64,000 nt of DNA from an uncultured Syntrophobacterales bacterium (lineage in GTDB: Bacteria > Desulfobacterota > Syntrophia > Syntrophales > UBA5619). Below are positions 12,507-58,775 of this stretch, one piece after another. A program made the position numbers and the translations under genes. The stretch's first letter is position 1, and the number at the start of each line of letters is the position of its first letter. The notes under the pieces are model-generated. The model saw nothing but the letters and a program-made list of their open reading frames with translations, was not told the origin of the DNA and ran no database searches. The DNA lies in NCBI GenBank assembly GCA_903928915.1, contig CAIYSL010000043.1, positions 1 through 64,000 on the forward strand. Reading direction: 5' to 3'.

Positions 12507-15320
12507 ATGAACAGGATCAGCACCGGAATCGGCGTTCTGTTTCTCACCGCGCTCATCATGGCCGGCCTCCCCTCACGGGCGCTGTCGGGCAGCGGGATCA
12601 TCATCGACAAGGGAAACGGCCGCGCGGTGAACCTCACCGTCTACTTCGACGACAAGGGCCAGGACCAGCAGCAGTGGATAGCCAACTTCCAGGAGACCCA
12701 CAAGATGCTCTGGACCGCCACCCGCGGCCTGCTCAGGCTCGGCGAGGTCCGTCTGGGCACCGACCCGAGCGTCAAGGGGCGGGCGGACATCCGGATCGAC
12801 AAGGTCGGACACGCCGCCGTCTCCCAGCCCGATGATCGGGAGCGCACCTCGCTGGGAACGGGTGACGTTCTTTACCTCTTCGAAGAGGACTTGAAGCACC
12901 CCATCATCACTGTCCATGAACTGGGGCATTACCTCTTCTGCCTTTCCGACGAATACAAGAGCGACGTCTGGGCGATCCAAAACGGCGCCGCCCAGGTTGT
13001 GGTCAAGGGAGACGAGCAGAGTTCCTGGTGCTCGGTGGAGCGGGCCTCGCCCCGCGAATCGACGGTAAACGCCCATCATTCGTGCGTCATGTATGACAAC
13101 GACACCCCGAAGGTCTATTACCTGTTCTGCGCCGAAGAGCACCTCAAACGGAACGACCTGGCCGACGGCCGTTGGGCGGTCACCCGCCAACAGCGCGACA
13201 ACAAGATGTCCTGCCTGAACACGATCGCCACCTCCCTGGGAATCAAGACGCTCCCGCCGCTGCAGACCGGCAACCCGCCGGATGAACCCGCGATCATCAC
13301 GCTGAAGCCCGAAAAAAGAGTAGGGATGCTCATCCAGGCCGGCCTGCCGGGGACAGCGTTGCAGAAGGCCAAGAATGTTGCCGCAGAGACGGTGAAGCGG
13401 CTGCGCCTGCCCGGTGCCGGGCGCAATGGGGATTCGGTAGGGGTGGCGACGTTCGCCGCGACCGTCGGGGTGATCCAGGAATGGAAGACACTGGGAACCC
13501 AGGCCGACATCGACGACACGGTGAGCCGCATCAACGGCATCACGGCGACCGCCGGTCCTGCAGACGTGGAAGCAGCGCTTCGTGCGGAGATGAACTCGAT
13601 CATCGGCGGGGGTTATCCCTATGCCACGAAATCCATCCTGCTGTTCACCAACACCTCCGGAACGGTCAGTCAAACGTTGATCAACGAGCTGCGCCGGAAT
13701 GACGTCGTGGTCGACGTCGTCTCCGATAACAGCGCCCTGAAGGGGCTGACCGTCCAGACAGGGGGCGACTTCACGTTGCTGAACGGTCCAGGCGAACCCG
13801 ACAGGGTTACCCTCGCATTGCGGGATGCGGATGACGACGAGGACGATGAGGAGAGCGACGGTACGGCGGCAACGGCGATCACGGGCGGGTACCTGATCGC
13901 CCGCTTCGCAGGGACGCTCCAGCCCGGCCAGCCCGTAAGTCACTCGCTTCCGGTGGATACGCTCAATGATGGGATAACCGTCGACTTCAGCAGCAGCGGC
14001 GGCGGCCCCCTCACGTTGGTCCTGAGAAACCCCGCAGGGGCCGCCATCGACCTCGACAACCCGCCCGCCGACGTACAGGTGCAGCGGACCGCTGCGCAGG
14101 TGCTGGTGCGCGTCGAGGAGCCGGATCCGGGAGCGTGGACGGCGCAGGTGGGCGGAGCGGCGGCCGCCGCATACACGCTCCTGCTGAGCGGGACCGGGGA
14201 CGCGATGGGCGAGGCCGACCTCCCCGGCCTGCCCGTGAAATTTCCGGCGGCGACACGGCTGTATCTGACGGTGGAGAACGGAATGGTCGTGACGGGCTGC
14301 CAGGTGCAGGCCGTCGTCACCCGCCCCGACGCAACGAAAGTCACCGTCCCTCTCTACGACGACGGCAACCTCGCGTTCCACGGCGACGCGCAGGCGGATG
14401 ACGGCGTCTACACCACCTTCTTCACCCAGTATGCGGGCTCCGGCGTCTACCGGGTCGCCTTTCGCATCAACAATGCGACCGGTCAGTACAGCACCGCCCT
14501 CGCCGGGGCCGATCTCCTCCCGGGCGATCCCCGGCCGGGTCCGGTCGGCCCCGCCCCGCCCTTCCAGCGCATCGTGTACGACTCATTTTCCCTGGAAGGC
14601 GCCCCCGCCGGAGGGGGCATGGCTCTGCTCGCACCGGGCGATCTGACCCTCCGGAGCGCCACCCCCGGTCAGGTCACGCTCTCCTGGACCGACACCAACG
14701 CGGGCCGGTCACAGACCGTCGTCCAGCGCGATTCGGGAACCCCGGAGGGTTACCGGGAAATCGCCGTGGTCGGCACCGAGCGGACTCAGTACCTCGACAT
14801 CCAGGCCGGGACGGCCGGCCAAGTCTCCTATCGGCTTCTGGCGCGCACGGCGGCCGGTGATTCGGAGACCGGCCGCCCCGAGGAGATCGACGCCGAAAAG
14901 GTCGCCTCTGCATTGACGGCCGGCGGTTCAAATTCCCGCTGCTTTATCGCTACGGCGGCCTACGGCTCCTCCCTGGAGCCCCACGTTCAGATACTGCGCG
15001 AATTCCGGGATCGAACGCTGACGCGCTCCATCCTGGGACGCTGGTTTATCGGCTTCTACGACCGCACCTCTCCGCCTGTTGCCGACTACCTTATCGGCCA
15101 CCCGTGGGCGCGGCTGCCGATCCGGATGGTGCTGACCCCGATCGTGTATCTGATCGAGTACCCGGCACTGGTTACCCCGGGCGTTGCGGTTCTGGTCGTT
15201 CTGGCCTGCTGGCTGATCCAGCGCCGCAGGCTTCGGAACGGCGACGAAGGATGCTGCGGCGAGGCGCCACGGGGACAGATCCCAAACGGCACGCCGGAAA
15301 TACCGGGCAAAGGACGGTAA
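12507..15320 (+). CDS. CLCA-like exported protein: HExxH metalloprotease motif, degenerate VWA domain, CFI-box C terminus
   Basis: 937 residues. N-terminal signal peptide (about 1-28). A zinc-protease motif HELGH starts at His137 and is followed by YLFCLSDEY, which aligns with the HExxHxxxGxxDEY arrangement of animal and bacterial CLCA proteins. Residues about 270-430 form a von Willebrand A fold, but the metal-binding DxSxS is missing (IQAGLPG stands in its place). An acidic linker (about 440-452) leads to beta-sandwich domains and an FN3-like domain near 700-790. The C terminus begins CFIATAAYGSS at Cys812 (CFI-box type), with a hydrophobic segment near 880-900 and then Arg-rich residues. 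It is probably anchored and faces outward. GGAGG precedes the ATG. The M28 peptidase gene follows after 2 bases. Confidence 0.8.
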   Translation: MNRISTGIGVLFLTALIMAGLPSRALSGSGIIIDKGNGRAVNLTVYFDDKGQDQQQWIANFQETHKMLWTATRGLLRLGEVRLGTDPSVKGRADIRIDKVGHAAVSQPDDRERTSLGTGDVLYLFEEDLKHPIITVHELGHYLFCLSDEYKSDVWAIQNGAAQVVVKGDEQSSWCSVERASPRESTVNAHHSCVMYDNDTPKVYYLFCAEEHLKRNDLADGRWAVTRQQRDNKMSCLNTIATSLGIKTLPPLQTGNPPDEPAIITLKPEKRVGMLIQAGLPGTALQKAKNVAAETVKRLRLPGAGRNGDSVGVATFAATVGVIQEWKTLGTQADIDDTVSRINGITATAGPADVEAALRAEMNSIIGGGYPYATKSILLFTNTSGTVSQTLINELRRNDVVVDVVSDNSALKGLTVQTGGDFTLLNGPGEPDRVTLALRDADDDEDDEESDGTAATAITGGYLIARFAGTLQPGQPVSHSLPVDTLNDGITVDFSSSGGGPLTLVLRNPAGAAIDLDNPPADVQVQRTAAQVLVRVEEPDPGAWTAQVGGAAAAAYTLLLSGTGDAMGEADLPGLPVKFPAATRLYLTVENGMVVTGCQVQAVVTRPDATKVTVPLYDDGNLAFHGDAQADDGVYTTFFTQYAGSGVYRVAFRINNATGQYSTALAGADLLPGDPRPGPVGPAPPFQRIVYDSFSLEGAPAGGGMALLAPGDLTLRSATPGQVTLSWTDTNAGRSQTVVQRDSGTPEGYREIAVVGTERTQYLDIQAGTAGQVSYRLLARTAAGDSETGRPEEIDAEKVASALTAGGSNSRCFIATAAYGSSLEPHVQILREFRDRTLTRSILGRWFIGFYDRTSPPVADYLIGHPWARLPIRMVLTPIVYLIEYPALVTPGVAVLVVLACWLIQRRRLRNGDEGCCGEAPRGQIPNGTPEIPGKGR

Positions 15321-16963: not shown

Positions 16964-17935
16964 CTATTCCACCTTCAGCTTGGCCGCCTTCACCACCTTG
17001 CCCCAGCGGTCGATCTCCTCGAGCAAGAACTTCTGGAAAAACTCCGGCGACTCGGCGATCGGGTCGGCGCCGAGCTGCGCAAACCGTTTGCGGAGGTCTT
17101 CTTTCTGCACGGCTTTGACTATGACGGCATTGAGCGCATTGACCACGGGGAGCGGGGTCCCCGCCGGCGCCAGGAGCCCATACCAGGTTGCGGTGGCGAA
17201 TCCCGCCAGCCCGCTTTCGATCATGGTCGGCAATTCGGGAAACAGCGCCGATCGCTTGGCGGATGTGATGGCGAGCGCCTTGATCTTGCCCGAGGCGAGC
17301 ATCGGCTGGGCCGCCGGGATGTTGCTGAAGGAGAAATTGACCTCTCCGCTCGCCAGCGCGGTCATCGACGGCGCCGTGCCCTTATAGGGGACATGGGTGA
17401 TCGGCGTGGCCAGCATCAGCTGGAGCATCTCCCCGGAGAGGTGCTGGGTGCTGCCGGTGCCGGAGGAAGAATAGTTGAATTTACCGGGGTTCTTCTTTAT
17501 CGCCTCGATGAATTCCGCGGCGTTTTTGGCGGGGAAGGACGGGTGCACCAGCAGCAGGTTCGGGCTGCTGGCGAACACCGCCACCGGCGCGAAGTCCTTG
17601 ACCGGGTCGTAGTTGAGCTTGGCGTACAGGCTGATGTTGACGCCCAGCGCCGCTGAGCTCATGAACAGCGTGTAGCCGTCGGCCGGCGATTTGGCGACGA
17701 CCACCGCGGCCACGTTCTGCGCCGCCCCGGCGCGGTTTTCCACGATGATCGGCTGTCCCATCGCCTCGGTGATGGACGGGGCGATCAGCCTCCCCATGAT
17801 GTCGCTCCCCCCGCCCGGTGCGTAGCCGACGATCATCCGGATGGGTTTGGTCGGGAACTTCGGCTCCTGCGCGAAGGCAAACCCGTTCAGGCACGCCAGT
17901 ACGCCGACTGCACAAACGATCAGCTTTCTTGTCAT
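16964..17935 (-). CDS. Bug/TctC-family periplasmic carboxylate-binding receptor (1)
   Basis: 323 residues with a Sec signal peptide ending near AFA-QE (about 1-22). The Bug/TctC fold follows at once: FPTKPIRMIVGYAPGGGSD (27-45), then NRAGA and DGYTLFMS. The family binds small di/tricarboxylates or amides in the periplasm and hands them to TctAB. It is the last gene of the 17-27 kb minus-strand run and ends at the bidirectional terminator. The nearest upstream genes code for an acyl-CoA dehydrogenase and an ADP-forming acyl-CoA ligase. No TctAB partner adjoins. Confidence 0.92.
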   Translation of the reverse strand: MTRKLIVCAVGVLACLNGFAFAQEPKFPTKPIRMIVGYAPGGGSDIMGRLIAPSITEAMGQPIIVENRAGAAQNVAAVVVAKSPADGYTLFMSSAALGVNISLYAKLNYDPVKDFAPVAVFASSPNLLLVHPSFPAKNAAEFIEAIKKNPGKFNYSSSGTGSTQHLSGEMLQLMLATPITHVPYKGTAPSMTALASGEVNFSFSNIPAAQPMLASGKIKALAITSAKRSALFPELPTMIESGLAGFATATWYGLLAPAGTPLPVVNALNAVIVKAVQKEDLRKRFAQLGADPIAESPEFFQKFLLEEIDRWGKVVKAAKLKVE

Positions 17936-21546: not shown

Positions 21547-22518
21547 TTACTGCATCTTCACCCCGGCGGCCTTGATCACCTCCGCCCACTGCGCCGTCTC
21601 GTCGCGGAGGAACTTGTTGAACTCGTCGGGCCCGTTGCCGACGGGCTCGGCCCCCAGGTCGGCCAGCCGTTTCTTCATCTCCGGGGTGTGCGGGATCTTC
21701 TTCAGTGCTCCCGCGAGCTTGTCGATGACCGGGCGCGGCGTCGCCGCCGGGGCCATGATGCTGTACCAGACGATCGTGCTCACGTCGATTCCGGCTTCCT
21801 TCAGCGTCGGCACCTCGGGCATCAGTTCGGCGCGCCTGTCGCTGGTGTTGGCAATGATTCGCAGCCGTCCCGACTTGATGTGCGGCAGCGCCGACGGGAT
21901 GTTGGTGAAGCTCATGTCCACTTCGCCGCTGATCAAGGCGGTGAGCGCGGGGGCTGTCCCCTTGTAAGCCACGTGCAGCGAGCTGACCTTCGCCCGCAGG
22001 TTGAACAACTCGCCCGTCAGGTGCTGGCTCGACCCGGCCCCTGACGATGAAAAGGTGAGCTTGCCCGGCTTGCTCTGGGCAAGGGCGATCAGCTCCTTGA
22101 TGCTCTTCGCCGGGATGTTCGGATTCACCGCCAGGATGTTGGGGCTGTACGCGAACATGGAAACGCCCGTCAGGTCGCGGAGCGCGTCGAAGGAGAGATT
22201 CTTGTACAGCGACTTGTTGATCGTTATGGCGGGCGAGCCCAGCAGGAGGGTATAGCCGTCCGGCGCCGACCGCGCAACGTACTCCTGGCCGATGTTCGTC
22301 CCTGCTCCGGGCTTGTTCTCCACGATCACCGGCTGCCCCAGTGCCTCGGACAGTTTCGGGGCCATCAGCCGCGCGGCGATGTCGTTGCCGCCGCCCGGCG
22401 TGTAGGCGACGATGATCCGGATCGGCTTTTCCGGGTAGGTTTGCGCCGGGGCCGGCGCCGCTAAGGCCAGGACCAGGATCAGGATCAGTATCGCCGCTCG
22501 TGCCATGACTCGTTTCAT
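21547..22518 (-). CDS. Bug/TctC-family periplasmic carboxylate-binding receptor (2)
   Basis: 323 residues. The signal peptide is long and strongly hydrophobic, ending near APAQT (about 24). The mature start YPEKPIRIIVAYTPGGGND and later NKPGAGTN are typical of Bug receptors. The ATG at 22518 is chosen for its GGAGAGGAG site; the frame continues upstream without family similarity. It is the middle receptor of three in this minus-strand run, flanked by the LeuA-like gene and the ADP-forming ligase. Confidence 0.92.
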   Translation of the reverse strand: MKRVMARAAILILILVLALAAPAPAQTYPEKPIRIIVAYTPGGGNDIAARLMAPKLSEALGQPVIVENKPGAGTNIGQEYVARSAPDGYTLLLGSPAITINKSLYKNLSFDALRDLTGVSMFAYSPNILAVNPNIPAKSIKELIALAQSKPGKLTFSSSGAGSSQHLTGELFNLRAKVSSLHVAYKGTAPALTALISGEVDMSFTNIPSALPHIKSGRLRIIANTSDRRAELMPEVPTLKEAGIDVSTIVWYSIMAPAATPRPVIDKLAGALKKIPHTPEMKKRLADLGAEPVGNGPDEFNKFLRDETAQWAEVIKAAGVKMQ

Positions 22519-25994: not shown

Positions 25995-26999
25995 CTACTC
26001 CTTCTTCATGTTGCCGGCTTTGACGACCTTCTCCCATTTGACCGTCTCCGCCTCCATGAACCTGGCGAAACCGGCGGAGTCCAGCACGTCGATTTCGGAG
26101 CCCTGCTTTTCGAATGTCTGCTTCATATCGTCCGAGTTCATGACCGCCGCGATCTCCCTGTGCAGCCTGTCGACGATCTCCTTCGGCGTGCCGGCCGGTG
26201 CGTAGATGCCCCACCAGATGGCTGCTTCATACCCGGGCAGGCCGGATTCGGCAACGGTCGGCAGCTCGGGCATCAGGTTGGTCCGGCTGGCGGCCGCGTA
26301 CCCCAAGGCCTTGAGCTTCCCGCTCTTTATGTTCGGCATCGTCATCGTCAGTGTACCGGTCAGGATCTGCGAGTGGCCCCCCATCACGTCGATCATCGCC
26401 GGCCCGCCGCCTTTGAACTGCACGATCTTGAAATCGATCCCGGCCATCATCTTGAACAGTTCGCTGCTCATGTGCACGAAGCTGCCGACGCCGGCGGCCC
26501 CACAGACCAGTTTGCCGGGCTGCTTCTTGGCCAGGTCGATGAGTTCCCGCACCGAGTTGGCCGGAACGCCCGGATGGACGGCGAGGACCGCCGGCCCGCT
26601 GCCGATCTTGGCAACGGGGATGAAGGACTTCGCCGGATCGTACGGCACCTTGAACAGCAGGGGGTTGGTCGCGATTGCCGAGGAGGTAAACAGCAGCGTG
26701 TAGCCGTCGGGGTCGGATTTTGCGACCAATTCCGCGCCGATCGTGCCCCCGCCCCCGCCGCGGTTATCCGGGACGACCTGCTTGCCCAGGCGTTCGGAGA
26801 GCTTCGTGGCGATCAGGCGGCCGACGATGTCGGTGCTCCCGCCCGGGGCGAAGGAGATGATCAAGCGGATCGGTTTTGCGGGATAGGAGTCGGCCGCGAC
26901 GGCCGACAAGGGGATAAGCACGACGGAAAGGGCGAGCAGCAGTCCGGCGGCCGTCCACAGTCCTTCTCTGATGCTTGATACCAGTCTCGTGTTGCGCAT
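25995..26999 (-). CDS. Bug/TctC-family periplasmic carboxylate-binding receptor (3)
   Basis: 334 residues. The signal peptide has a twin-basic start and a long hydrophobic core ending near AVAAD (about 37). The Bug signature follows as YPAKPIRLIISFAPGGSTD. It has an unusual run of five glycines after NRGG, where most receptors have GAGG. The ATG at 26999 has AAGGAGGG upstream; the open frame to 27122 is leader. It is the first gene of the minus-strand run that ends at 16964, driven by the promoter at 27107-27135. Confidence 0.92.
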   Translation of the reverse strand: MRNTRLVSSIREGLWTAAGLLLALSVVLIPLSAVAADSYPAKPIRLIISFAPGGSTDIVGRLIATKLSERLGKQVVPDNRGGGGGTIGAELVAKSDPDGYTLLFTSSAIATNPLLFKVPYDPAKSFIPVAKIGSGPAVLAVHPGVPANSVRELIDLAKKQPGKLVCGAAGVGSFVHMSSELFKMMAGIDFKIVQFKGGGPAMIDVMGGHSQILTGTLTMTMPNIKSGKLKALGYAAASRTNLMPELPTVAESGLPGYEAAIWWGIYAPAGTPKEIVDRLHREIAAVMNSDDMKQTFEKQGSEIDVLDSAGFARFMEAETVKWEKVVKAGNMKKE

Positions 27000-29782: not shown

Positions 29783-30772
29783 TTACTTCTTGATGCCCAG
29801 CTCCTTGACGACTTCCGTGTACTCCTCGTACTCCCGTTTGATCAGCTTCCCGAACTCTTCGGGTCCCAGATATTTCATCGGCAGGCCCATCTTCTCCATC
29901 TGCTGGATGTACTCGGGGTCGGCGGCGGCCTTCTTGAAGGCGTCGGCGAGCTTGGCGATGACCTCCTTGGGGGTTGCCTTGGGGGCGGCGAAGCCGCGGT
30001 TCGAGTTGATCACCAGGTCGATCCCCGCCTCCTTGAAGGTGGGGACGTTCGGCAGCTCCTTCATCCGCTCATCCGTTGCCGCGGCGATGATCTTGACCTT
30101 CCCGTCCTTGAGCATCCCCTTCACCTCGCCGTAGGTCTGGGTTACCGAGTCGATGTGGCCGCCCAGGAAGGCCGCCTTGGACTCTCCGGCCCCGCCGAAC
30201 CCCACGTGCTTGGCCTTGATAGCGGCCGCCTTGTTCAGGAACAGCAGGGCGAGGTGGCCCGACGTCCCGGCGCCCGAGGTGCCGATGGTCAGCTTCTCCG
30301 GGTTGTCCTTGGCGTACTTGATGTACTCCGCGGTGGTGTTGAACCGCTTGTCGTCCGCCCGGACGACGAACAGACGGGGGTCGGAGACCACCAGGCAGAT
30401 CGGCGCCACGTCGCTGACGGGGTGGTAGGAGGCCTTCCGCATGGTGGTGAGGATGACCGATGCCGAGTTGAACCCGGCGAGGGTGTAGCCGTCGGGCCGC
30501 GAGCGGACCATCTGCGATACCCCGACTTCGCTCCCGCCGCCGTCGACGTTCTGGATGACGAAGGGCCTGCCGAGGAACTTTTCCGCTGCCTTGGTCGCGA
30601 TGCGCGTGCCGATGTCGGTGCCGCCGCCCGCGGCGAAGGGGACGATCAGCGTGACCGGTTTCGCCGGATAATCCCTTGCCGCTCCCCAGGCCGTTCCCGT
30701 TCCCATAAACGACGCAACGGCCAGGAGCGCAACGAGCGATTTCATCATGCCCACGAGATATCTCTTCTGCAT
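29783..30772 (-). CDS. Bug/TctC-family periplasmic carboxylate-binding receptor (4)
   Basis: 329 residues. Signal peptide about 1-30, ending TAWGAA. The mature part starts YPAKPVTLIVPFAAGGGTD, and DGGGSEVGVS replaces the more usual GAGG loop. The C terminus has ILGPEEFGKLI-like sequence typical of Bug proteins. The ATG at 30772 follows an AGGAGG site. It is the first gene of a three-gene minus-strand unit, separated by about 340 bases from its likely promoter at 31111-31140. Confidence 0.92.
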   Translation of the reverse strand: MQKRYLVGMMKSLVALLAVASFMGTGTAWGAARDYPAKPVTLIVPFAAGGGTDIGTRIATKAAEKFLGRPFVIQNVDGGGSEVGVSQMVRSRPDGYTLAGFNSASVILTTMRKASYHPVSDVAPICLVVSDPRLFVVRADDKRFNTTAEYIKYAKDNPEKLTIGTSGAGTSGHLALLFLNKAAAIKAKHVGFGGAGESKAAFLGGHIDSVTQTYGEVKGMLKDGKVKIIAAATDERMKELPNVPTFKEAGIDLVINSNRGFAAPKATPKEVIAKLADAFKKAAADPEYIQQMEKMGLPMKYLGPEEFGKLIKREYEEYTEVVKELGIKK

Positions 30773-34486: not shown

Positions 34487-35464
34487 ATGAAGAAATCGCT
34501 CCTGGCGTTCATCGTCCTGGCCGTGGTTGCGGGTGTCGCTGTCGGGCCCCTGTTCGCCGCCGAGGAATATCCGACCCGGCCGATCCGGATGATCGTGCCG
34601 TTTCCGCCCGGCGGCGGCAACGACCTGTTGGCGCGGTCGATCAGCCAGCCGCTCTCGCAGGCCATCGGCCAGCAGGTCGTCGTGGACAACCGCGGCGGCG
34701 CCGGCGGACAGATCGGCGCCACCCTCGCGGCCGCGGCGGCGCCGGACGGGTACACGATCTTTCTCGGCAGCATCGGCAACCTCACCTTCCTGCCGGTGCT
34801 GCAGTCCAAGCTGCAGTACGAGCCGGTCCGCGATTTCGCACCGGTGACGCTCCTGGCCACGTCTCCGTTCATCCTGGTGGTGAATCCGGCCGTCCCGGCC
34901 AAATCGGTGAAGGAGCTGATCGCGCTGGCCAAGGCCCAGCCCGGGAAACTCAACTACGGCTCGGCCGGGCCGGGATCGTCGCTGCACATGACCGGCGAGC
35001 TGTTCAAGCTCGATGCCGGCGCGGACATCACCCACATCCCCTACAAGGGGACCGCGCCGGCGCTGGTCGACCTGCTGGCGGGCCAGGTGCAGATGCTCTT
35101 CAGCACCATGCCGTCGGTGGTTCCGCACGTCAAGTCGGGGAAACTGCGGGCGCTCGGGGTCTCGAGCGCGAAGCGCACGGCCGTGGTTCCCGACGTCCCG
35201 ACGATCGCCGAGGCGGGGGTACCGGGGTTCGAGGTGCTCAACTGGCAGGGGATCGTCGTGCCGAAGAAGACCCCCGAGGCGATCGTGCAGAGGCTCAATA
35301 GCGCCCTGCGGGAGGCGCTCAAGTCGCCCGAAACGATCGCCGCGCTGGCCAAGCAGGGGCTCGACGCCGCCGGCGGAACGCCCGGAGAGTTCGGGGCGCT
35401 GATCAAGTCCGAGATCGAAAAATACGCCAAAGTGGCGAAGGCGGCGAACCTGCGGCTGGAATAG
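34487..35464 (+). CDS. Bug/TctC-family periplasmic carboxylate-binding receptor (5)
   Basis: 325 residues with signal peptide about 1-24 (LFAAEE junction). The mature N terminus is YPTRPIRMIVPFPPGGGND, followed by DNRGGAGGQIG and DGYTIFLGS. It starts 62 bases after the second cupin gene behind AAGGAGG, and closes the cupin/HMGL/CoA-transferase operon before a strong terminator. It probably captures the acid which those enzymes convert. Confidence 0.93.
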   Translation: MKKSLLAFIVLAVVAGVAVGPLFAAEEYPTRPIRMIVPFPPGGGNDLLARSISQPLSQAIGQQVVVDNRGGAGGQIGATLAAAAAPDGYTIFLGSIGNLTFLPVLQSKLQYEPVRDFAPVTLLATSPFILVVNPAVPAKSVKELIALAKAQPGKLNYGSAGPGSSLHMTGELFKLDAGADITHIPYKGTAPALVDLLAGQVQMLFSTMPSVVPHVKSGKLRALGVSSAKRTAVVPDVPTIAEAGVPGFEVLNWQGIVVPKKTPEAIVQRLNSALREALKSPETIAALAKQGLDAAGGTPGEFGALIKSEIEKYAKVAKAANLRLE

Positions 35465-47544: not shown

Positions 47545-48528
47545 ATGAAAAAAGGAACGACCGGGCTTGTCGTCATAACGTTGATCGTCTCACTGGGCTT
47601 GTTTACGGGCATGCTCGGGGCAGGCGAACCCTATCCGACCCGTCCGATCCAGGTCATCGTGCCCTTCCCGCCCGGCGGCGTGGCCGACCTGTCCGCCCGT
47701 CCCCTGGCCATGGCCCTGGAGGGGATTCTGAAGCAGCCGGTGGTTGTGGTCAACAAGGCGGGAGCCGGCGGCACGGTGGGGATCCAATCCGCGGCGATCA
47801 GCAAGCCCGACGGCTACACCCTGCTGGTCTCCCTTTCGAGCCTGCCCTATCTGCACGAAGTGGACCGCCTGTTCAATCGGCCCCCCGCCTATAAGCCCGA
47901 CAATTTCATCCCCCTGGCGATGCTGACCGGGGATCCCCTGGTGATCGCCGTGCACAGCGACTCCCCCTGGAAAAAGATCGAGGATTTCGTCGCCGACGCC
48001 AAGAAACGGCCGGGCAGCCTCAAGTTCGGCTCCGGCGGGATCTACAGCGTCATGCACGTGGGGGCGGAGCTCTTCTTCAAGAAATCGGGCATCCAACTGG
48101 CCCACATCCCCTATAACGGGGGCGGGCCGAGCCTGAACGCCCTCTTGGGAAAGCACATCGACTGCGCGGCCTTCGGGCCGAGTGTGTTCGCCGGCCAGAT
48201 GAAGGCGGGACTCGTGCGTCCCCTGGTGGTGCTGGGGGACAGGCGCCTCGATTCCATGCCCGATACGCCGACCGCCAAAGAGAAGGGGGTCGACGCGGAA
48301 TTCTACATCTGGTCCGGCGCCTTTGCCGTACGGGGGACCCCCGATCCCGTCGTGAAGATCCTGCGGGACGGCATCCGGGAGGCCGTCAGGAAGCCGCAGT
48401 TCGCCACTGCGATGGAGAAACTGCAGACGCCGATCATGTACATGGACCAGCCCGACTTCAAGAAATTTCTCGACGCGGATGAAAAGCGGTCCGTCCAGGT
48501 AGTTCGCGAAATCGGCAAGGTTCAGTAA
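47545..48528 (+). CDS. Bug/TctC-family periplasmic carboxylate-binding receptor (6)
   Basis: 327 residues. Signal peptide about 1-26 (GMLGAGE junction), then YPTRPIQVIVPFPPGGVAD and NKAGAGGTVG. This one differs from the others in the binding loop after PFPPGG (VAD, without the second Gly-Gly). The ATG at 47545 follows AGGAGG. It is paired with a 2-keto-4-pentenoate-hydratase-like gene 15 bases downstream, so the ligand may be a meta-cleavage-type or other enol acid. Confidence 0.92.
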   Translation: MKKGTTGLVVITLIVSLGLFTGMLGAGEPYPTRPIQVIVPFPPGGVADLSARPLAMALEGILKQPVVVVNKAGAGGTVGIQSAAISKPDGYTLLVSLSSLPYLHEVDRLFNRPPAYKPDNFIPLAMLTGDPLVIAVHSDSPWKKIEDFVADAKKRPGSLKFGSGGIYSVMHVGAELFFKKSGIQLAHIPYNGGGPSLNALLGKHIDCAAFGPSVFAGQMKAGLVRPLVVLGDRRLDSMPDTPTAKEKGVDAEFYIWSGAFAVRGTPDPVVKILRDGIREAVRKPQFATAMEKLQTPIMYMDQPDFKKFLDADEKRSVQVVREIGKVQ

Positions 48529-57773: not shown

Positions 57774-58775
57774 ATGAAAATCGCAATGCGCCAGTGGTTG
57801 ACGAGGGGAATGGGGATGGTCGGCGGAGTGTGCTGCTTCCTGCTGGTGTTCATGCTCGCACTGCCCGGTGTTGCCCCGGCCCAGGAAAAGTATCCGGCCA
57901 AGCCGATCAATTTCATCATCGGCTATCCGGCCGGGGGGACCACGGATATCTGCGCCCGGCCCCTTGTGAGCGCCGCCGCCAAGATCCTGGGGCAACCGGT
58001 CGTGGTGGTGAACAAGCCCGGGGGCGGTTCGGCGGTGGCCGTTGCCCTCCTGAAGACCGAGAAGTCCGACGGATACACGATCGGCATCCTGCCCAGCGGC
58101 GCGGTCCTGAGCCAGCACATGCGCAAGGTTCCCTACGACTCGGCCAAGGATTTCACCCCGATCATGCAGTATGCCGTCTACCTGTACGGGATGGTCGTCC
58201 AGACCGATTCTCCCTGGAAGACCTTCAAGGAGTTCATCGACTACGCCAAGGCCAACCCGGGGAAGATCCGCTACGCCACGGCCGGACCCGGGACCCCGCA
58301 GCATCTGGTCATGGAGCGGCTGGCCATCCAGGAGAAGATCAAATGGACGCACGTCCCCTTCGAGGGCGGCGGCCCGGCGGTCTCGGCCCTGCTGGGCGGC
58401 CATGTGGAGGTGATCTCCCAGACCACGGAGTGGAAGAAGCACGTGGAGTCGGGGCGGCTGCGGCTGCTGGCGGTGTACGGCGAAAAGCGGATGCCGGATT
58501 TTCCGAATGCGCCGACCCTGCTCGAGTTGGGCTATAACATCACCGCCCCGAGCCTCATCTCCATCATCGGCCCCAAGGGGCTTTCCCCCCAGGTCGTCGA
58601 CACGCTGCACGGGGCCTTCAAAAAGGCGATGGACGATCCGGATTTCATCAAGGCCGGCAACCAGATGGACCAGCCCTTCCTGTACCGCGGTCCCAAGGAC
58701 CTGGAGAAGCACCTGGTCCAGATGAACGACGAGGTCGGGACCCTGATCCGCAACCTGGGTCTCCGGAAAGAGTAG
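57774..58775 (+). CDS. tctC: Tripartite tricarboxylate transporter periplasmic receptor TctC (Bug 7)
   Basis: 333 residues. Signal peptide with a long hydrophobic core ending near APAQE (about 37), then YPAKPINFIIGYPAGGTTD and NKPGGGSAV. The binding loop after the second strand carries SDGYTIGIL. The ATG at 57774 has AAGGAGG upstream. It is the only receptor in the window directly followed by tctB and tctA (13 and then 8 bases apart), so the three form one complete importer. Confidence 0.95.
   Translation: MKIAMRQWLTRGMGMVGGVCCFLLVFMLALPGVAPAQEKYPAKPINFIIGYPAGGTTDICARPLVSAAAKILGQPVVVVNKPGGGSAVAVALLKTEKSDGYTIGILPSGAVLSQHMRKVPYDSAKDFTPIMQYAVYLYGMVVQTDSPWKTFKEFIDYAKANPGKIRYATAGPGTPQHLVMERLAIQEKIKWTHVPFEGGGPAVSALLGGHVEVISQTTEWKKHVESGRLRLLAVYGEKRMPDFPNAPTLLELGYNITAPSLISIIGPKGLSPQVVDTLHGAFKKAMDDPDFIKAGNQMDQPFLYRGPKDLEKHLVQMNDEVGTLIRNLGLRKE

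Follow-up and report, generated by a model that had tools for sequence, protein, structure and literature searches.

The window analysed here (64,000 nucleotides of DNA from an uncultured Syntrophobacterales bacterium) contains a reading frame that raises the question of whether a bacterial protein is related to the animal CLCA proteins, whether it would act as a protease, and whether the peptidase gene beside it belongs to the same system. CLCAs with the domain order of the animal proteins were reported from bacteria in 2013 (PMC3650047), so a bacterial relative is not in itself new. The features first read from this frame, namely a zinc-protease motif, a VWA fold without its metal site (MIDAS), an acidic linker and a CFI-box C terminus, were all found (Table 1), and on the sequence features we predict an envelope-anchored protease of a rare and very diverged bacterial CLCA-like branch.

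Table 1. Features of the CLCA-like gene and of the gene downstream, with the evidence for each.
Feature	Residues	Position in window	Strand	Basis
CLCA-like protein, open reading frame	937 aa	12507..15320	+	strong ribosome-binding site, family profiles
Putative signal peptide, ends ALS	~1-28	12507..12590	+	sequence reading, AF2 helix 2-19
Metzincin-like protease domain	~36-250	12612..13256	+	relatives' profile E 5e-21; motif-masked 8e-13
HELGHYLFCLSDEY	137-150	12915..12956	+	invariant HExxH and DE, 13 members
Cys-rich lobe with Met-turn	C175, C193-V-M195, C208, H212, Q228, C236	13029..13214	+	alignment, 13 members
VWA domain, MIDAS motifs lost (QAGLP, GPAD, TNTSG)	~268-432	13308..13802	+	Pfam, structure model, alignment, profile
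Acidic linker ADDDEDDEESDG	~443-454	13833..13868	+	sequence
Beta domain like hemicentin galactose-binding-like domain	~464-556	13896..14175	+	PF23560, relatives' profile, AF2
Beta domain with choice-of-anchor X	~569-660	14211..14486	+	NCBIfam, relatives' profile
Fibronectin III (FN3)-like domain	~705-798	14619..14902	+	matches to FN3 regions of relatives' CFI-box proteins
CFI-box C-terminal domain	812-880	14940..15146	+	NF041770 2.8e-25, above cut-off
TM helix, then basic tail	886-911	15162..15239	+	sequence, AF2 helix 886-911
M28-family zinc aminopeptidase-like protein	518 aa	15323..16879	+	PF04389 5.9e-30; spacing

The frame starts with ATG just behind GGAGG, its third-position GC (0.82) matches the expectation for coding DNA in this window, and the putative signal peptide has a basic start and a hydrophobic core. 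In the Pfam search the VWA domain fell just short of the cut-off, a hemicentin-type beta domain matched, M64 left a trace and CLCA was absent; the NCBIfam matches above cut-off were the CFI box and choice-of-anchor X (614-654), and the animal CLCA model TIGR00868 matched at 1.6e-11, far under its full-length cut-off. Profiles built from relatives only, with the window protein excluded, matched the zincin (5e-21), the VWA (3e-8) and the two beta domains (5e-14 and 8e-23), and neither the 561 reading frames of the window nor 200 shuffles gave any comparable match to these four profiles.

The predicted secondary structure of the protease domain runs strand-helix-strand-strand-strand-active-site helix. 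The original prediction read the motif as HExxHxxxGxxDEY and placed the catalytic Glu at position 138; all catalytic positions, E138 included, are present, but the Gly is Cys145, so the layout is HExxHxxxCxxDEY. Conservation of the motif in homologues, on which that reading depended, was confirmed: HExxH, D148 and E149 are invariant across 13 members (the window protein and 12 full-length relatives), Tyr150 and Met195 each occur in 12 of the 13, all four lobe Cys after the active site in 9, and C-[IV]-M in most. By transfer from M64 structures (PMC12237041, PMC12402451), H137, E138, H141 and D148 are the predicted catalytic zinc site and E149 possibly belongs to a second one. When the motif was masked in the profile, and either masked or left intact in the protein, the zincin still matched at ~3e-13 to 8e-13; with the motif as X in both, E was 8e-13 overall and 8e-9 for residues 39-100. 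Therefore, the N-terminal domain is homologous to that of the relatives beyond the motif, and a chance HExxH is ruled out. The AF2 model of residues 26-265 (alignment of at most six sequences) had a mean pLDDT of 55 and a pTM of 0.60, and this low-confidence model gave no significant match in fold searches of PDB and BFVD; the full-length model, from an alignment of the same depth, was of low confidence as well, and PDB sequence searches with the family profiles surfaced no structure of a CLCA catalytic domain.

The motif layout, taken at first as specific to CLCA, is shared by the M64 igalysins (IgA proteases, BF3526, PDB 3P1V and 9EKK), in which two His and the Asp of HExxHxxxGxxDEY bind the catalytic zinc, the Glu of DEY and three Cys hold a second zinc, and C-I-M is the Met-turn (PMC12237041, PMC12402451). 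The likeness between M64 and CLCA motifs had been remarked earlier (PMC3650047), and the motif alone is therefore no proof of CLCA. The N-terminal domain might then be an igalysin-type peptidase independently joined to a VWA domain, the likeness to CLCA being convergent domain shuffling; besides the layout, it shares with M64 the C-[IV]-M turn and perhaps a second zinc held by the Glu of DEY and by Cys residues, its nearest weak Pfam match is M64 (E 0.012; PF09471 on the zincin fragment 15.2 bits, cut-off 26), and the zincin profile met an M64 IgA protease of the PDB on the motif (0.012). However, the similarity ends at the motif: the match is confined to 20-30 residues around it, and the igalysins have no VWA and other flanking domains. 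The family profile aligned over only 26 columns with L069, an M64 protein that exceeds the Pfam cut-off, and over none once the motif was masked, whereas same-family zincins under masking stayed below 1e-4; this comparison is only suggestive of a separation from M64 because one M64 sequence was used. Moreover, the domains C-terminal to the zincin match TIGR00868, and we regard an M64 origin as unlikely.

For CLCA itself, PF08434 (CLCA_N) does not match the window protein, which therefore falls outside the CLCA family as formally defined. Among the first eight members this model gave weak matches only, in three (best 0.0042); a further, N-terminal-half match (0.012) was to L081, where PDZ domains flank a zincin of the same family. 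No match rose above cut-off across the 297 and 194 genomes of the phyla searched. TIGR00868 matched seven of the eight members (best 8.8e-27), over stretches of ~390-490 residues in L025 and L022, and its positions 606-682 match the second beta domain of the window protein. Because TIGR00868 spans VWA and beta domains in the relatives and reaches the second beta domain here, and because sub-threshold PF08434 matches exist, the window protein is likely a distant homologue of CLCA. Of the original reading, the CLCA-like architecture, the active-site motif in every relative and the MIDAS loss are borne out, while PF08434 is unmatched and the motif is not specific.

Animal CLCAs (PF08434 plus VWA; human CLCA1, CLCA2 and CLCA4) have the order CAT-Cys-VWA-BSR-FnIII with cleavage near residue 700 (PMC10669480, PMC6851300). 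The window protein has the same order (zincin, Cys-rich lobe, VWA, beta-rich domain, FN3, the last being its weakest element), and also shares the signal peptide, HExxHxxxxxxDEY, a C-terminal anchor (TM in CLCA2) and the length (937 aa against 943 in CLCA2). It differs in a zincin short of PF08434, in Cys for the motif Gly, in the absent MIDAS, and in having a choice-of-anchor X signature and a CFI-box tail. Lenart et al. (2013, PMC3650047) described CLCAs from bacteria and archaea that are likewise prokaryotic, patchily distributed and CLCA-like in architecture, but their set was defined by PF08434, to which our branch is invisible, and unlike it our branch lies in Planctomycetota, Verrucomicrobiota and the window's own phylum.

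The VWA domain scored 23.6 bits with PF00092 (cut-off 23.8), and its structure, predicted with moderate confidence, resembled crystal structures of the CLCA1 VWA at 20-21% identity and a TM of 0.70-0.72 by target, human CLCA1 being among the closest solved VWA structures. The family profile found the CLCA1 VWA in the PDB at 4.7e-18, where only a mussel thread protein ranked higher. DxSxS is missing, as had been claimed, and the Thr and Asp positions are substituted too, so the domain is not a CLCA-type VWA with MIDAS. The first and third motifs are retained in 11 of 13 members and lost in the window protein and in L097 (6613-9051, genome G156), a second CLCA-like protein without MIDAS motifs on another branch, apparently independent of the window. 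The loss, seen in only two of 13 members, is therefore derived and, provided that the tree is correct, arose on two occasions; the program that built the tree warns of long branches. In this unrooted tree the window protein is fast-evolving and falls in a long-branched group whose order the tree does not resolve, its own branch being 2.44. Because the loss is derived, this copy is a poor guide to the older function of CLCA that it had been hoped to show. The loss of all MIDAS motifs and of the motif Gly, together with the long branch, could also mark a pseudoprotease that is decaying and about to be lost, but the full-length open frame, the strong ribosome-binding site, the coding-like third-position GC, and the intact HExxH, D148, E149, Met195 and four conserved Cys make this very improbable.

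Further along the chain, the expected acidic linker is present, and the first beta domain matched PF23560 at 8e-6 on the fragment, just under cut-off, with a pLDDT of ~80. The C-terminal third is of another kind. All matches to the window protein in the 60 nearest relatives are confined to the FN3-CFI part (residues 701 onward). The FN3-like region, itself without a Pfam fn3 call, matched CFI-box proteins of relatives in their FN3 regions (1.7e-4 and 7.8e-4), one of these regions being a Pfam fn3 domain; the second E value is that of residues 705-786 with a same-genus protein of the order subtilase-FN3-FN3-CFI. The predicted CFI box was borne out by NF041770 (87.9 bits, cut-off 40). In relatives this box follows a Gly-rich linker, often behind FN3 domains, and leads through an amphipathic stretch into a TM helix and then Arg residues; across L002-L020 the module reads Gly run, CFIATAAYGS, amphipathic stretch, SPP, LTPVVY, TM helix and Arg-rich end. 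It terminates many other, unrelated exported proteins of the lineage, subtilase among them, and resembles a signal for sorting or anchoring. The window protein likewise carries CFIATAAYGS, a TM helix and a basic tail, whereas the N-terminal parts of the relatives' CFI-box proteins (subtilase-FN3 and others) are unrelated to its own. Because the C-terminal third is lineage-native and the CLCA-like part was not seen in those relatives, the simplest reading is a fusion of a CLCA-like part with a native FN3/CFI/membrane tail.

Relatives were gathered with a three-row profile and then with a zincin-only profile. With the N-terminal part as query, a search of 395 genomes from the phylum gave matches in 6, the window's own counted. 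The twelve full-length relatives come from the window's own phylum, Planctomycetota and Verrucomicrobiota, share ~20-30% identity, and all have the same zincin-VWA-beta-beta order. Zincin-profile matches occurred in 30 of 246 sampled Planctomycetota genomes, many of these matches being weak and in proteins of different architecture; in L081, L082, L085, L086 and L087 the zincin stands between PDZ domains or C-terminal to a squalene-cyclase/TED-like domain. The family, present in at least three phyla, includes secreted, tandem, signal-peptide-less and sensor-linked forms. A tandem pair of genes was seen in L099 (7251-13820, G694), and a ~300-residue insert between active-site helix and Met-turn in L100 (7727-11815, G549). 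Carriage by viruses or plasmids was rejected, no relatives being found among viral contigs or plasmids, and the search for an empty site in relatives gave no clean site because the genes on either side are members of paralogue groups.

The original prediction also paired the protein with an M28 peptidase. The M28 gene does start 2 bp past the stop codon, and its product belongs to M28 (PF04389, 104.9 bits, cut-off 21.3), has a lipoprotein-like N terminus and keeps the metal-ligand motifs HLD, DDNASG, GEE, LDM and a late His. No M28 relative occurred in the 12 other loci searched, and the pairing is therefore recent or private. In the 60 nearest relatives we found generic M28 matches and no close homologue, and GC at the gene is ~0.58 against 0.66 around it. 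The window also holds at least seven matches to Bug/TctC-type solute receptors (16964-17935, 21553-22479, 26001-26900, 29789-30733, 34517-35461, 47572-48504 and 57852-58763); the whole genome has 63 such matches, against 17-29 in five of the six genomes of the same genus.

With a little better than even confidence, we propose a secreted, C-terminally membrane-anchored, metzincin-type zinc endopeptidase, a distant bacterial CLCA homologue working with the M28 aminopeptidase. The protein would be exported by its signal peptide and kept in the envelope by the FN3-CFI-box-TM tail, with the type I topology of human CLCA2; the zincin (H137/H141/D148, E138) would cut proteins at or near the cell surface, the MIDAS-less VWA may be a structural or metal-independent binding module, and the M28 enzyme, presumably cotranscribed, would trim the peptides produced. 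A Pro-rich linker (~665-700) joins the beta domains to the FN3-like domain at a place corresponding to the CLCA2 cleavage site (708 of 943), and the zincin may also cut there, in the same chain or in that of a neighbouring molecule; self-cleavage is speculative. A conserved F-x-R segment before the FN3-like domain may resemble the cleavage region of animal CLCAs, a likeness given no weight here. Against the anchored endopeptidase stand the unmatched PF08434, Cys145, the long branch, an M28 pairing seen at none of the 12 other loci, the zincin pLDDT of 55 and the lack of a signal peptide in L094 and L096.

Alternatively, the protein could be a CLCA-type adhesin or regulator whose protease is self-directed (maturation in trans), the freed N-terminal part binding a partner and the M28 gene being incidental. 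Animal CLCAs self-cleave through their HExxH-type motif, and it is the VWA set free in this way through which they act (PMC11231702, PMC10669480), the M28 pairing is not conserved, and the relatives in G292 and G407 adjoin PDZ-GAF signalling proteins. But the animal mechanism needs the VWA MIDAS (PMC11231702), which is lost here, and CLCA1 also cleaves MUC2, so that even in animals the protease is not self-restricted (PMC6851300); we give this alternative clearly less than an even chance, though a real one. In the two neighbourhoods concerned (L094 3223-9609 and L096 1814-8254) the CLCA-like gene stands with an apolipoprotein N-acyltransferase and a PDZ-GAF membrane sensor; the first 600 residues of the two sensors are 30% identical, but as output one has a histidine kinase and the other an adenylate/guanylate cyclase. 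These sensor-linked relatives suggest a signalling role in some bacteria.

What is new here is the branch undetected by PF08434, its spread in Planctomycetota, the MIDAS losses, the CFI-box anchoring and the sensor-linked relatives. That such proteins represent an old, diversified bacterial family from which animal CLCA descends is rather doubtful in our estimate; if true, a bacterial origin of animal CLCA would reverse the direction of transfer proposed in 2013. The finding extends CLCA-like proteases to a bacterial branch missed by current family models, indicates that the MIDAS site can vanish while the protease residues stay invariant, and offers small bacterial systems for assaying what the protease domain of CLCA primarily does.
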